From: Phycisphaerae bacterium
GTDB lineage: Bacteria; Planctomycetota; Phycisphaerae; Sedimentisphaerales; SG8-4
Length of the DNA stretch: 22,111 nucleotides
Direction: 5' to 3'
Assembly (NCBI GenBank): GCA_030613765.1
Contig: JAUWLI010000009.1
Coordinates: forward strand, 1-22,111
Part shown: positions 5,500 through 15,823 of the stretch, one piece after another
Position numbering within the stretch: the first letter of the stretch is position 1
Layout of the letters: each line of letters begins with the position of its first letter
Position numbers and translations under genes: made by a program
Notes under the pieces: generated by a model
Seen by the model: the letters and a program-made list of their open reading frames with translations, nothing else
What the model was told of the DNA's origin: nothing
Databases searched by the model: none

Positions 5500-5586
5500 A
5501 TGATAGGCAAGTGGAGTTGTAGGGTGATCAGACCCAGTTGCTGTAGGGAACAGTTCTCTATAGGTGCTGGGTCTTTTTGTTTGTAG
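5500..5586 (+). CDS. Possible 28-aa leader peptide rich in Cys
   Basis: ATG 5500 is preceded by a strong site, GGAAGG, with 5 nt spacing. The frame encodes 28 residues, four of them Cys, including adjacent Cys codons 14-15 at 5539-5544. It runs straight through the terminator-like hairpin at 5530-5574 and stops at 5586, 19 nt before the LRR gene. Its only proposed role is as a leader peptide. A chance ORF is equally possible, because 28 codons is short and no homologue is recognised. Confidence 0.35.
   Translation: MIGKWSCRVIRPSCCREQFSIGAGSFCL
5530..5578 (+). terminator. Terminator-like hairpin in the LRR gene leader (possible attenuator)
   Basis: AGACCCAG (5530-5537) pairs perfectly with CTGGGTCT (5567-5574), and the right arm runs into a T-run ending in TTTGT. 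The 29-nt loop contains a second small hairpin, GGGAA-CAG-TTCTC (5546-5558, with one G-T pair). It sits between the promoter at 5433 and the LRR start at 5606, so it would stop transcripts before the gene or release a short RNA of about 110 nt (5467-5578). Confidence 0.55.
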
Positions 5587-5605
5587 ATTTAGAAGGGAGA
5601 AAGAG

Positions 5606-6988
5606 ATGAAGAAGTTAGTAGTTTTATTGGTTCTGGTAGTATCAGCTAATGCTGTTTTTGCTGAAGATCCTGTTTATTTTGCTGATCCTAATCTAAAAGC
5701 TGCTGTGGAAGGAGAATTAGGAATTACTAATCCTACTCCGAGCGATATGTTGGGGTTGACTTATCTTGATGCTCGAAATAGGGGAATAGTAGATCTGACC
5801 GGACTGGAGCATGCCACCAATCTTACGTTCTTGGACCTCCACAACAACCAGATAAGTAACCTCTCCGGATTGTCTGAAATGAACATGCTGACCACACTAT
5901 CTCTGCATCGTAATCAGATAAGCGATCTTTGGCCCCTGGTAAATCTGACTAACCTGACGAGTATTACCCTGCAAAACAATCAGATCACAGATACGTCAGC
6001 ACTTTTGGCTCTGACGGATTTGACGTTCCTGAGCCTCGAATCCAACCAGGTAGATAACCTCTCCGGACTGTCTGGAATGACCATGCTGACCACACTATCT
6101 CTGCATCGTAATCAGATAAGCGATCTTTGGCCCCTGGCAAATCTGACTAACCTGACGAGTATTACCCTGCAAAACAATCAGATCAGTGACATTTCCCCAC
6201 TTTCGGTCATGAATAGTCTGATTTCGCTTTATCTAAATGGCAATCCCCTAAATTGTCCTGCATACGACATCTACATCCCAATAATCGAAACCAATAATCC
6301 GGGCATCTATATTGCTTATAATCCTAGGCCAGCCTACTGTGACTACCAGCCTGATATTGATGTTTCTCCTCTGGTTTATGATTTCGGTGATGTCGAGTTA
6401 GAAACAGCCAACAGTATTCTTATAACCATCCTAAACTATGGCAATGGAAATCTTTCTGTTCAAAATCTGACCTTCACACCTGAGAGCAGCACCGACTTTG
6501 CAGTAACCTTATCTCCCGAACTCCCTTCTATTGTTGCTCCAGAAGGGAGCATTGATATTGAGATTAGTTTTGCCCCATCAACTGAAGAACTTCTTTCTGC
6601 CGTCTTGCAAATCAGCAGTGATGATCCTGACGAGCCTGTCGTCCCAGTCAACCTAATTGGAGTAGGAGTAGTAATACCTGTCCCACCTTCGGAACAGATC
6701 GAGCAGATTCTTGAATTTTTCGATGCATCTGTTGCTGATGGGACTCTTGTATGTGTTGGTCCTGGTCAATCAGCAGCCAATAGGTGTGAAGCATTAAGAA
6801 ATATGCTTGAAGCAACCAACGACCTTATTGTTAGAGAATACTTTGAGGATGCATATGCTCAGCTTGTAGATGTTCTGAATAAGTGTGATGGTCAGGTTCC
6901 ACCATCAGATTTTGTTACAGGAGAAGCAAGAGAGGAATTGGCAAACATAATTATGGAACTAATGGAAGATTTAGAAGGTGAGGAGTAG
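5606..6988 (+). CDS. Exported leucine-rich-repeat protein with ASH-like and FIMAH-like domains
   Basis: 460 aa from ATG 5606, with AAGGGAG about 6 nt upstream; a GTG at 5564 lies inside the terminator hairpin and is rejected. The signal peptide spans residues 1-19 (VFA/EDP). Residues about 50-215 are 22-residue SDS22/internalin-type LRRs with the L-x-L-x-x-N-Q-I-S-D pattern. Residues 248-355 are an ASPM/SPD-2/Hydin-like (choice-of-anchor D) beta sandwich (DIDVSPLVYDFGDV start, SSDDPDEPV near the end). Residues 362-457 are a helical C-terminal domain of the FIMAH type (QILEFFDASVADGTL, LRNMLEA). A surface or secreted binding protein is inferred. Three LRRs appear to be a recent internal duplication. 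Confidence 0.85.
   Translation: MKKLVVLLVLVVSANAVFAEDPVYFADPNLKAAVEGELGITNPTPSDMLGLTYLDARNRGIVDLTGLEHATNLTFLDLHNNQISNLSGLSEMNMLTTLSLHRNQISDLWPLVNLTNLTSITLQNNQITDTSALLALTDLTFLSLESNQVDNLSGLSGMTMLTTLSLHRNQISDLWPLANLTNLTSITLQNNQISDISPLSVMNSLISLYLNGNPLNCPAYDIYIPIIETNNPGIYIAYNPRPAYCDYQPDIDVSPLVYDFGDVELETANSILITILNYGNGNLSVQNLTFTPESSTDFAVTLSPELPSIVAPEGSIDIEISFAPSTEELLSAVLQISSDDPDEPVVPVNLIGVGVVIPVPPSEQIEQILEFFDASVADGTLVCVGPGQSAANRCEALRNMLEATNDLIVREYFEDAYAQLVDVLNKCDGQVPPSDFVTGEAREELANIIMELMEDLEGEE
5858..6183 (+). repeat. Internal 198-bp offset duplication within the LRR gene
   Basis: About 130 bp starting at 5858 recurs starting at 6056 with about four mismatches. The 198-bp offset is 66 codons, exactly three 22-residue LRRs. 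The rest of the unit (5986-6055) is more diverged. This looks like a recent in-frame repeat expansion. Confidence 0.85.
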
Positions 6989-7255: not shown

Positions 7256-8095
7256 TCATATTTGCTGGATAAAACGCCGGGATAACGGGAGTTTTCCATA
7301 CAAACTCGAATTCTTAATTACACTGCGCCTTCTGTTGTAAATTGCCTCATCAATATATATCTGTAGATTTGCATTTCTCACAGGAGTTGAAAACCTGTCT
7401 ACCATACTTACTGTGTATTCTTCATAACAGTCACTCAACCAGTAATCTGAAAGTATTGCTAAATCATTTACATCGACAACATTGTCCATATTCAAATCGC
7501 CGACAACGTTTGGACCGGCTACTTGCCAGTTTTGCATAAGCTCCGAATAATCTATAAAATTAACAGGATTAAGGCCGTCAAGATTGGGACAATTCGCATC
7601 ACAGGTATCTCCACCGCCATCGCCGTCGGAATCCCTCTGGGAAGGATTGAAGTTATTGGGACAGTTGTCCAAATCATCGTTCACACCATCGCCATCTGAA
7701 TCGAAACAGCCTGTTGTTTCCCACTGCCACGATGAGAAACCTCCCAACATGTCATAGACGTAGAGGAAATCATTAGCGTCTAAAAAGTTAGCAGCCTGAT
7801 TACTTCTATTACCGCTGCGACAATAAACCAGAATTTCACTGTCCCTCGGCAGTTCCTCATAACGTTGCTGTAGAACCCCTGAAATCCATGGATAATTGAG
7901 AGCACCTGGAATATGTCCTTCAACAGCACAATACTCGTACAATTCCCGAACATCGATAACTATTAATTGGTCGTTGGAATCAATCATGTTTTTGGCCTCC
8001 AGGGAGTTAACGTCTATATGGGCCAAAGCACAGGAATTAAAGACTACAGAGAATGCAACGAGCAGAATAAAAAAGGTTGAAAGCTTAATTTTCAC
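7256..8095 (-). CDS. Exported rhodanese with TSP3-like and dockerin-like modules
   Basis: 279 aa from GTG 8095, supported by AGGAGG (8111-8106) 10 nt upstream; an upstream in-frame start at 8140 would include the ribosome site in the protein and is rejected. The signal peptide spans about 1-25 (ALA/HID). Residues 26-128 form one rhodanese domain with the substrate motif IDVRELYEY and the active-site loop CRSGNRS (Cys92). Residues 131-166 are thrombospondin type 3-like Asp-rich calcium repeats (DSDGDGVND, DSDGDGGGD). Residues about 177-223 are a dockerin-like pair (NFIDYSELMQNW, GDLNMDNVVDVNDLAILSDYWL). A basic 50-residue tail follows and is unassigned. Expected chemistry is sulfur transfer from a persulfide Cys outside the cytoplasm; the partner is unknown. 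Confidence 0.85.
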   Translation of the reverse strand: MKIKLSTFFILLVAFSVVFNSCALAHIDVNSLEAKNMIDSNDQLIVIDVRELYEYCAVEGHIPGALNYPWISGVLQQRYEELPRDSEILVYCRSGNRSNQAANFLDANDFLYVYDMLGGFSSWQWETTGCFDSDGDGVNDDLDNCPNNFNPSQRDSDGDGGGDTCDANCPNLDGLNPVNFIDYSELMQNWQVAGPNVVGDLNMDNVVDVNDLAILSDYWLSDCYEEYTVSMVDRFSTPVRNANLQIYIDEAIYNRRRSVIKNSSLYGKLPLSRRFIQQI

Positions 8096-8209
8096 GAATA
8101 CCCCACCTCCTGGGGAAATGAGTTTATCACTCGTTATCAAAACAAGTCATTTATAGGCTCAGCCGTTCAGTGTTCCGAAAAGCAGCGCAAAATCGAATTT
8201 TACATGTAC

Positions 8210-8931: not shown

Positions 8932-9192
8932 CGTTGCGCTGTGAACAGCTCTGAATGTAGCGAGTGCCGATACATGAGCTTAACTGGAACAATTCAATTT
9001 AGTGGATTTGACCCAACCGTTTTTAGGCTAAATTATAGAGTAAGGAGATTCGCAAAAAACGAGATTTTATACGTACCCATGTGGCAGTATTGAACTGAAT
9101 TTATCTATTTAAATCAATAAAAATAAAGTAACAGAAGCGTGCTTAAAAACGGTTGCATTTGCGGGTCTCGAAAAGAGTAAAGGAGACAAAAA

Positions 9193-10551
9193 ATGTTACG
9201 AAAAAGAAAAGGTTTTACATTGGTTGAGTTGTTGGTCGTGATTGCGATCATAGCTCTGCTGATGGGCATCTTGATGCCGGCCCTGGCCAGGGTAAGGCAA
9301 ATCGCCTTCCGAATGGTCTGCGGCTCGAACTTGTCCGGTATCGGCAGGGCGATGCTCATCTATGCAAACGATTACGACAACGACTTTCCGCGTGCAGGTT
9401 TTACAGGGACCTTGTGGGCCGATCACGTTCCCAGTTGGGCTGCTGCCGATAGAACATCTGCTTTTGGTAAACCCGGCATAGCAACCATCTCTTCCAGCTT
9501 CTATAGTTTGGTAAAGTTTGCAGAGGTGACACCAAAGTCATTTGTCTGCAAGGGTGAGCCAACGAAGAAAGCCTTCAAAGCTTCTGATCACATACCAAAC
9601 TTTGAGGATGAGGATGCCTGGGATTTCGGACCTTCCAATTGGCCCACCAATATTGGCCCCTACAACCATTGCAGCTACTCCTACCACATGCCTTATAACC
9701 AGCGTTTCCTCAGCACCGCATCAAGCGAACCGGGCATGGCCGTGGCGGCAGATAGGAATCCGCATTTAGACTATTATGCTGATGATTCTTCCAGCTTCGA
9801 TCCGACCAACACCGGTAGGAACAATGCAGGAATCAAAATCTCCAATTTAGGAAATGCTGCTGCTCACCAAAGGGAGGGACAGAACGTATTGTTTATGGAC
9901 ATCCACGTGGACTTCGAAAAACAATCGTTCTGTGGTGTTGATGAGGACAACATCTATACGTGGCAGGATCCGGTAGTGCCCATACAGCGGGGCATGTTTC
10001 CCGTGTGTGCAGCTTATGATCCGGATCATCCCGTTGGCGCAACGGATTCACTATTGGTAAATGAGTGTGGCCCCAGCCCCGGGCCAGGGCCAATATCAAA
10101 ACCACCAGGCGCGCCCGGCTGTTTCCCTGCCGATACTCCTGTCTGGATCGATGGAGCACAGGTGCAAATCTCAAAAGTTGCCGCTGGCCAGAAGGTCGGT
10201 AAGCTTGATGCCACTGACACAGTGTCGTCCTTCGAAAAACCGGTGTGCTTAAAAGAAATTGAAAATATCCTGGAGTACCAGGGAACGTACGACTATTACA
10301 ATATAGTGCTCGAAACCGGAAATCGCATCAATGTTGTAAATACACACTATTTTCTAACTGCCTCCGATCAATGGGTCCTGGTACAAAACTTGAAAGTCGG
10401 CTCAAAAATGCAGTCATTAAAGGGTCCAATTAGAATCAAGACTATTTCAAAGAGAGAAGTGCCTTTTACTGGCAGGCTCTACGATCTGAAGATTAAAGGT
10501 GGAGACCGGTATTTCGTAGGTGAAGACGGTGTAGCCGTACGTGGTCATTGA
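9193..10551 (+). CDS. Pseudopilin-like protein with a C-terminal Hint (Hedgehog/intein-type) domain
   Basis: 452 aa. ATG 9193 has AAGGAG (9180-9185) 7 nt upstream. Residues 1-30 are a type IV prepilin leader: basic RKRKG, cleavage expected at G7/F8, Glu at +5 (E12), then a hydrophobic helix. Residues 31-245 follow the planctomycete pseudopilin pattern (MVCGSNLSGIGRAMLIYAND), with a variant of the H-X9-DG motif (H225, ten residues, then D236-I). A Pro/Gly-rich linker (293-309) joins a 143-residue Hint domain starting at C310 in G-C-F-P-A-D-T-P-V. Other Hint marks are NTHYFLT (H385), a W-x6-L-x-V-G stretch (384-404), and the final RYFVGEDGVAV strand. The protein ends in RGH, without the Asn needed for splicing. 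The domain may cut after G309. A strong terminator follows; it is monocistronic. Confidence 0.88.
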   Translation: MLRKRKGFTLVELLVVIAIIALLMGILMPALARVRQIAFRMVCGSNLSGIGRAMLIYANDYDNDFPRAGFTGTLWADHVPSWAAADRTSAFGKPGIATISSSFYSLVKFAEVTPKSFVCKGEPTKKAFKASDHIPNFEDEDAWDFGPSNWPTNIGPYNHCSYSYHMPYNQRFLSTASSEPGMAVAADRNPHLDYYADDSSSFDPTNTGRNNAGIKISNLGNAAAHQREGQNVLFMDIHVDFEKQSFCGVDEDNIYTWQDPVVPIQRGMFPVCAAYDPDHPVGATDSLLVNECGPSPGPGPISKPPGAPGCFPADTPVWIDGAQVQISKVAAGQKVGKLDATDTVSSFEKPVCLKEIENILEYQGTYDYYNIVLETGNRINVVNTHYFLTASDQWVLVQNLKVGSKMQSLKGPIRIKTISKREVPFTGRLYDLKIKGGDRYFVGEDGVAVRGH

Positions 10552-14804: not shown

Positions 14805-15611
14805 TCAGTAGTCTTTAAATTGTCGCATCCATTCAGGCCAGACACCCGGCCAGCCGCTTGTATCGAAGTTTCGATGCCACTTCAGCTTCCACAACTCCTT
14901 AAGTCCGACCTTTCTGACAGTCCAATCCAAAAAGACACAATTTATGCACTCGTTGTGCCGGTCTATGCAGAAATGATGCATTTCTGCATTATAGCCGCTC
15001 CACTCGCCATTCTCGCTTGGTGGCTCAATGCGGACCGGAGCAATGCCGTAACCCGGTCCCCCTCCCCTCCACATGCTGTCCATAAAAACAGGTACATTGG
15101 CTGCACCTGGCACATCCATCATCCTCCAGTTCCATTTAGTCGGACGACGCTGAATCTCCGTAACATTCTCCGGCGGATTATAAAGCCAGTTATTCATACC
15201 ATAGCTGCACTCTTCATCCCCAATATTGCCCGATATGGCTCTACCCATTATGTAAGTCCAAAACGGACCACCATACACTGCGCCGTTAGGATGGCGTTCC
15301 TTAGCCATCGGGCAAAGAAGCAGCTTTTTGCGCCTTTGTGTGTTTATATAAGGACGTAACGCTGTTATCCATTCGCCACGATGCCATCCACCTCCACCGG
15401 AAGGAATAAGACCTACGCTGAATGACCCTTCGTAATCATCACCATACATCATCCAGTAAAGACCCCATTGTCGCAGATTAGATTGACAAATCGTCGCCCG
15501 TGCCTGGTTCCTTGCCTGCTCGAGTGCGGGTAGTAGTATCGCCATCAGAAGCGCGATTATCGCAATCACCACCAAAAGCTCTATCAACGTAAATGCTTTT
15601 CGTTTACGCAT
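14805..15611 (-). CDS. Type II/IV pseudopilin-like protein (H-X9-D type)
   Basis: 268 aa from ATG 15611, with AAGGAG (15624-15619) 7 nt upstream; an in-frame start at 15656 lacks support. The N-terminus is a class III-like prepilin leader, RKRKA then [17 protein letters not shown], with Glu at +5 (E11). The residue before the cut is Ala6 rather than the usual Gly. The C-terminal part has the processing-associated H-X9-DG-type motif as H219, nine residues, D229-W, followed by [16 protein letters not shown], typical of planctomycete pseudopilins. It should be inserted in the inner membrane, be cut by a prepilin peptidase and project into the periplasm. Unlike the protein at 9193, it has no Hint domain. 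Confidence 0.88.
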
Positions 15612-15823
15612 TGTGCTTCTCCTTCTCTCTTTAAGAAGGACTTTATAAACCGACACTTACTCATAAGAAATGAATACTTCCGTCGTTGTATTTGTCTGAA
15701 TTATTATAACCGCGCTCCTTGCGTTGATGCAAACAATTTACGAGGTTTTTGCCAAACCAGTCAAAACAGCCTCAGGAATATCCCCCTTGTCCTGTCAGGA
15801 TTATTTTTGACCGGGAAAGACCT

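Follow-up and report, generated by a model that had tools for sequence, protein, structure and literature searches.

A Hint module ends a planctomycete pseudopilin and other, unrelated exported proteins

Introduction

The N-terminal half-reaction of Hint domains is established for the bacterial intein-like (BIL) domains and for the Hog domains of Hedgehog proteins. Here, we analyze a 22,111-nucleotide stretch of DNA from a Phycisphaerae bacterium (GenBank assembly GCA_030613765.1, contig JAUWLI010000009.1, positions 1 to 22,111), hereafter the window, in which one uninterrupted open reading frame (ORF) of 452 residues (9193..10551 on the forward strand, stop codon included) encodes a pseudopilin with a C-terminal Hint domain. 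We put at roughly 60% the probability that this Hint is a self-processing C-terminal module common to exported proteins of an uncultured planctomycete group, with the window pseudopilin as one carrier.

BIL domains are described as occurring in non-conserved bacterial proteins, with those of the A type ending in His-Asn (PMC7765530). The window family resembles the BIL domain of 2lwy in its whole-length Hint profile, its Cys1, and its block-B His but differs in that its proteins end in RD[WYF] or RGH and have other residues in place of the block-B Thr and the block-F His. With Hog domains it shares the place of a C-terminal Hint on an exported protein and the expectation of N-terminal cleavage only, whereas the sterol-recognition region that follows in Hog is missing. 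The features compared set the window Hint apart from splicing inteins and from Hog domains alike. The Hints of polymorphic toxins (PT-HINT, for example, in MafB) are alike in matching PF07591, but no passenger lies past the Hint of the window family. A 2008 paper (PMC2362128) describes bacterial Hint-like domains at the C-terminus of proteins, some with secretion signals, from species that include Stigmatella, Myxococcus, Reinekea, Serratia, and Yersinia, with one related N-terminal type; these are similar in their C-terminal position and different in their species and in the N-terminal type, and the string "planctomyc" is absent from the main text of that paper. The modular type IV pilin PilB of Streptococcus (PMC8179133) likewise joins a pilin to an extra module, but in the window family that module is a Hint and is also found on non-pilins. 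In Planctopirus limnophila, the DUF1559 proteins are reported to form the paralogue group with the most members (68; PMC10632474). We recognized no paper on a pilin-Hint fusion in the open-licence literature, subscription papers being outside the search. The combination of PF07963 and PF07591 is precomputed for many database matches, which bears out the caution in an earlier note on this DNA that the fusion might already be catalogued.

Results

The C-terminal domain of the window protein (residues 310 to 452, 143 residues; 10120..10548), which reaches the last residue as the earlier note had proposed, is assigned to the Hint superfamily by sequence profiles, and the Hint fold is predicted from these profiles. 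The window Hint alone matched TIGR01445 (E = 0.0055, residues 310 to 389, starting exactly at C310, 17.7 bits against a cut-off of 24.5), PF14890 (0.008, 16.4 against 35.8 bits), and PF01079 (0.035, 14.1 against 29.7 bits), in each case below the cut-off. Among its relatives, the closest Pfam model, PF07591 (PT-HINT), was matched by 49 of 56 full-length proteins at E up to 0.01, and a profile built from 14 Hints of pilin and non-pilin carriers matched PDB entry 2lwy, a BIL domain, over its whole length (3.7e-6, positions 2 to 135 of 137). The 56 proteins, a hand-picked set that includes the window protein, align at 50 to 84% identity for the full-length relatives. The existence of relatives over the full length, together with internal stops in 0 of 36 Hint places across 12 genomes, rules out a chance or frame artefact.

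The conservation of the presumed active site was assessed in 168 proteins, the window protein included, pooled from a full-length search and a Hint-only search. With an E limit of 0.001 and only 7999 candidates scored, the former yielded 6893 proteins, many of which are probably ordinary pseudopilins with the common leader, and its best 120 were taken; the latter yielded 68 proteins. The Hint is carried by 155 of the 168 and absent from 13. Cys1 is present in 155 of 155 Hints, a count for which the extraction pattern demanded Cys, although the 13 unmatched proteins are without a Hint domain, and the block-B His is present in all 154 Hints that extend that far, the remaining one (P0015) being broken off. 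In a third protein search, for which a beta-helix carrier served as the query, 400 proteins were obtained, and among the best 120 of these, Cys1, the block-B His, and an R-D pair were each found in 120 of 120. In the window protein the first two correspond to C310 (codon 10120..10122), Hint residue 1 and the presumed nucleophile, and H385 (codon 10345..10347). The importance that the earlier note had attached to both residues is thus upheld, and conservation and profile matches together support its predicted cleavage point at G309/C310.

The Hint is also the end of the protein. Among the same best 120 of 400 this was the case for all (119 exactly, one with 1 extra residue), and at the genome loci 0, 1, 5, or 14 residues follow the Hint, with L003 (29 residues) as the sole exception; in the window protein none follow. 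The protein ends in R-D-[WYF] in 126 of the 155 Hint proteins, in R-[GS]-[HY], the window type, in 10, and otherwise, usually with a short extension, in 19 (P0015 among them). The window protein itself ends in VRGH (10537..10548), at the position of the His-Asn of splicing Hint domains. No sterol or adduct recognition region was found downstream of the Hint in the window protein or at the genome loci, nor any toxin domain at the genome loci or in the best 120 of 400 proteins. In genome G009, 4 of the 6 Hints (L026, 6893-10447; L030; L035; L064) have an extension of roughly 14 residues (VALDCS...) beyond the point where the module normally stops, whether the carrier is a pilin, a beta-helix, or a protease-like protein.

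The same module ends proteins that are not pilins. In the Hint-only search, Hints 80 to 89% identical to that of the window were found on four non-pilin proteins, P0121 to P0124, of which P0123 has a precomputed beta-helix domain and the other three appear similar by eye, and more distant Hints were found on the PQQ-propeller proteins P0128 and P0138. A pattern scan of a species-genome collection gave 44 loci. Of these, 43 carry planctomycete labels of differing rank, including one Pirellulaceae (L033), and the remaining locus, L020, is labelled Zixiibacteriota. The non-pilin carriers at these loci comprise PQQ-propeller, beta-helix/PF08480, FGE-sulfatase (sulfatase-modifying-factor-like) with CarboxypepD, rhodanese with GLUG, leucine-rich repeat (LRR), and subtilisin-like proteins, and two further short carriers have a single N-terminal hydrophobic stretch. 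In a Hint tree of 67 rows (37 pilin, 30 other), 11 changes of carrier class are needed, at least 7 of which are forced by well-supported branches, whereas shuffled labels need 22. In its behaviour, the Hint thus resembles a tail that moves between the C-termini of exported proteins. The reading of the earlier note needs correction in this respect: the pilin is only one client, because unrelated exported proteins terminate in the same module, at up to 89% identity, and a pilin-specific device is ruled out by the non-pilin carriers. Choice-of-anchor Q domains as a general rule are likewise ruled out, being found in only 6 of the 50 carriers scanned.

Two of the loci are unusual. The module of L020 (9371-10396) lies on a chromosome labelled Candidatus Zixiibacteriota and groups with that of the planctomycete L025 in the Hint tree, reflecting either transfer or wrong binning. 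In L029 (9128-10396), an IS200-like transposase domain shares one reading frame with CarboxypepD_reg and the Hint module, an arrangement that may have arisen by insertion into a longer carrier gene.

The residues just before Cys1 are often shared across carriers. For the junction count, 63 distinct frames from genome loci, a 50-residue fragment (L044) having been left out from the start, were reduced by 11 truncated duplicates to 52 and then by four incomplete Hint matches and one Hint next to masked sequence to 47 Hints, the profile starting at Cys1; three leaderless frames (L011, L013, and L017) were assigned to the pilins by eye. At position -4, K is found in 22 of the 24 non-pilin junctions and 18 of the 23 pilin ones; at position -2, R is found in 22 and 17 of them, respectively. 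A different flank, KPPGxP(P)G, is found alike on the pilins of the window clade and on the non-pilin proteins P0121 to P0124, and because of this we regard the flank as apparently part of the module.

The carriers have N-termini of the export type. By a simple, crude rule, a strongly hydrophobic N-terminal stretch was found in 22 of the 23 non-pilin carriers at the genome loci whose N-terminus is intact, compared with 74 of 174 neighbouring genes, and under a tighter limit in 21 of 23 compared with 58 of 174. In a set of 11 genomes, from which G003 (labelled Zixiibacteriota) was left out, a prepilin peptidase family was detected in 10, and each genome encodes 22 to 129 prepilin leaders, so that Hint pilins are a small minority among pilins.

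The window protein itself is a prepilin-leader (type IV pilin-like) protein. Its leader and N-terminal hydrophobic helix (residues 1 to 28; 9193..9276), with the G7/F8 processing site and E12, match PF07963 (N_methyl; 4.3e-9, residues 3 to 28, 36 bits against a cut-off of 21.2) and TIGR02532 (3.7e-7, 29.7 against 16.3 bits), both above the curated cut-offs, in agreement with the intact leader read by the earlier note. A possible ribosome-binding site, GGAG (9182..9185), lies 7 nucleotides upstream of the ATG. The pseudopilin body (residues 29 to 292; 9277..10068) gave a match to PF07596/DUF1559 that is below the cut-off (E = 0.11, residues 34 to 73, 12.9 against 23.3 bits), and no H-X9-DG family model matched the window protein up to E = 1 in the library scan. 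The H-X9-D-like motif of the earlier note is in fact H225-X10-D236, and membership in the DUF1559 or H-X9-DG pseudopilins was rejected on these grounds. The Pro/Gly-rich linker (residues 293 to 309; 10069..10119) ends in SKPPGAPG, followed by C310.

The Hint is under purifying selection. Ratios of nonsynonymous to synonymous substitution (dN/dS), calculated with our own Nei-Gojobori script for 8 pairs, are 0.12 to 0.43 in the Hint and 0.15 to 0.47 in the body, so that constraint on the two parts is similar. In 7 of the 8 pairs, the Hint shows less synonymous divergence than the body. The contrast was tested in three pairs chosen once the values were known: the window and L001 (20 of 98 sites in the Hint, 81 of 205 in the body, p 0.001), L069 and L075 (p 0.002), and L008 and L014 (p 0.14). 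The low synonymous divergence of the Hint fits module exchange or gene conversion, with codon constraint and the choice of pairs as alternatives.

What occupies the C-terminal slot varies among homologues: a Hint, a dockerin-like tail, a poly-Pro end, or none of these. The 13 Hint-less proteins among the 168 are 71 to 91% identical to the query over 62 to 67% of its length, and their tails are Pro-rich in 12 cases and Thr/Ala-rich in one (P0086). In two genomes, G010 and G011, a Hint pilin at a window-type locus is accompanied by a separate Hint-less pilin with a poly-Pro end elsewhere, and no Hint remnant was found at the Hint-less loci of these two genomes. The Hint-less genes there adjoin gene cluster 1, which also adjoins Hint pilins at eight loci, two of them missed by the tag pattern, with the Hint seen in the frame analysis. 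We take this cluster to encode a UDP-sugar pyrophosphorylase. The Hint-less pseudopilins L081/L100 and L082/L099 have a terminal run of about 13 to 15 prolines, and because L099 and L100 also contain genes (clusters 2 and 7) that adjoin a different Hint-pilin locus, their exact orthology is unsure. Among Hint-less homologues of the pilin body in module-bearing genomes, poly-Pro ends are found in 2 of 13 distinct proteins, with most of the others ending shortly past the body. Five homologues of the pseudopilin body (L091, L092, L094, L095, and L098) start with a stretch resembling a zinc ribbon (M[NY]CPKC... or MNCSKC...) rather than a plain prepilin leader. For one beta-helix carrier, 30 homologous loci taken from a longer list in nine genomes comprise 7 with a Hint and 23 without (22 distinct). 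A dockerin-like C-terminal motif is seen by eye in 9 of the 22 distinct Hint-less homologues, while the other 13 end otherwise; PF00404 (dockerin), scanned against 8 of these 9 tails, matched 7, all below the cut-off, and dockerin as the alternative tail was for this reason rejected.

Apart from the pilin itself, no dedicated partner gene is common to all of the 21 loci compared (18 pilin-Hint, two Hint-less, and the window; non-pilin loci were left out), and the neighbours common to several of them are, by eye, sulfatases and housekeeping genes. The gene order of the window is largely conserved in L001 and L004. A second pseudopilin, without a Hint and with a weak DUF1559 match (0.0011, below the cut-off), is encoded on the reverse strand at 14805-15656, and L001 and L004 each have a pilin gene in a comparable position. 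Two other neighbours resemble Hint carriers by eye at their N-termini: a rhodanese (7256-8140, reverse strand) with thrombospondin-3 and weak dockerin matches resembles L034 (7517-10393), a rhodanese with a C-terminal Hint module, and an LRR protein (5564-6988, forward strand) in which a choice-of-anchor D domain was matched resembles L026 (653-4138), an LRR protein that bears the module.

In a sample of 392 genomes from the phylum, the module was found at E up to 1e-20 in a single genome, that on which the sample was centred, with only distant Hint matches in 21 others, although many genomes had only 10 candidates scored and some modules may be missed. Within the order of the centre genome, 19 of 148 genomes have the module, eight of these belonging to a set of 12 and others of the 19 being sources of scan loci. 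The 12 genomes, chosen for having the module, contain 1 to 6 copies each, 36 in all.

Discussion

The observation of the earlier note is confirmed and its interpretation partly supported. The course of events that we infer, including the catalysis, the timing, and the nucleophile of Hint cleavage, begins with export of the carrier, by a prepilin leader here and by Sec-type or lipoprotein signals in others, after which the Hint would fold outside the cytoplasm. An N-S acyl shift would then move the peptide bond G309-C310 onto the sulphur of Cys1, an outside nucleophile would resolve the thioester, and the products would be a carrier with the Pro-rich linker as its new end and a detached Hint of 143 residues, much as in the N-terminal half-reaction of BIL and Hog domains. 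Judging from sequence, N-terminal cleavage at G309/C310 is probable. Splicing is unlikely because other residues stand in place of the terminal Asn, the penultimate His, and the block-F His and because the protein has no domain past the Hint. C-terminal cleavage is unlikely as well.

Several findings weigh against a self-processing module common to exported proteins. By itself, the window Hint falls below all curated cut-offs. The block-B Thr, three residues before the His, is replaced by V (113), A (40), or I (1) in the 154 Hints, while 2lwy keeps Thr at that position in the profile alignment; the block-F His is replaced, mostly by E, D, or N; neither the penultimate His nor the terminal Asn is kept; and the window clade is without the terminal RD-aromatic. 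The K-x-R flank is present in only 82 of 155 proteins, the window clade having KPPGxP(P)G in its stead, and the near-total count of K-G-R in the best 120 of 400 is biased because the search region took in part of the flank. Concerning export, a hydrophobic start is found in only 99 of 119 proteins of the same best 120, some of the 20 that fail appearing truncated; carrier L029 is without one; and exosortase genes in 10 of the 11 genomes provide these cells with another sorting route. Finally, constraint on the Hint does not exceed that on the body, with dN/dS for the window and L001 at 0.38 and 0.26, respectively.

How the thioester would be resolved divides the preferred reading into two versions. 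In one, the Hint would be a self-removing aid to folding or export, with water resolving the thioester and leaving a free Pro-rich tail. The Pro-rich tails on 12 of the 13 Hint-less proteins are consistent with this, as is the occurrence of a Hint pilin together with a Hint-less poly-Pro pilin in G010 and G011, but poly-Pro ends in only 2 of the 13 Hint-less pilin-body homologues of module-bearing genomes speak against it, and neither the repeated movement of the module onto unrelated carriers nor the conserved flank remaining on many of them would be explained. We hold this version as a tentative possibility.

In the other version, which we regard as doubtful, the thioester would be passed to an amine or hydroxyl at the cell surface, on a peptide, glycan, or lipid, in analogy to Hedgehog or sortase. 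The often conserved carrier-side flank would suit such a transfer, as would the dockerin-like tails that hold the slot of the module in 9 of 22 Hint-less homologues (by eye) and the choice-of-anchor Q domains of 6 of 50 carriers, beside which the NCBI name of P0220 is cited. Against it, the dockerin matches are all below the cut-off, pilin and lipoprotein carriers are already membrane-bound via their N-termini, and no acceptor or partner gene was found among the pilin-Hint loci compared. The attachment of the new C-terminus to a lipid, sugar, or protein proposed in the earlier note is unsupported, as no lipid-recognition region follows the Hint. The broader proposal that the mobile Hint is the self-catalysed C-terminal sorting system of these planctomycetes, cutting itself off exported proteins (pseudopilins among them) and joining the new C-terminus to a surface acceptor as a sortase-free counterpart of Hedgehog, is put forward as quite doubtful.

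An inactive Hint, having lost catalysis and acting instead as a stable fold that binds a partner or caps the C-terminus, is conceivable because four catalytic positions used by other Hint domains differ, and oxidation of an exported Cys might contribute. However, an invariant Cys1 and block-B His in more than 270 Hints would be hard to explain without catalysis, and we consider this reading unlikely. Excision as a splicing intein or release of a C-terminal toxin, for which the matches to PT-HINT and intein models could be cited, is ruled out for practical purposes by the lack of a domain past the Hint and of the His-Asn end.

Hint domains of this kind, being small, exported, and devoid of splicing residues, might find use as ligation tools. 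For the organisms themselves, the presence of one Hint module on pilins, adhesin-like beta-helix proteins, lipoproteins, and enzymes points to a common post-export step with a defined cleavage point, and, if this step does join carriers to a surface acceptor, it would represent a bacterial route to the outcome of Hedgehog processing.
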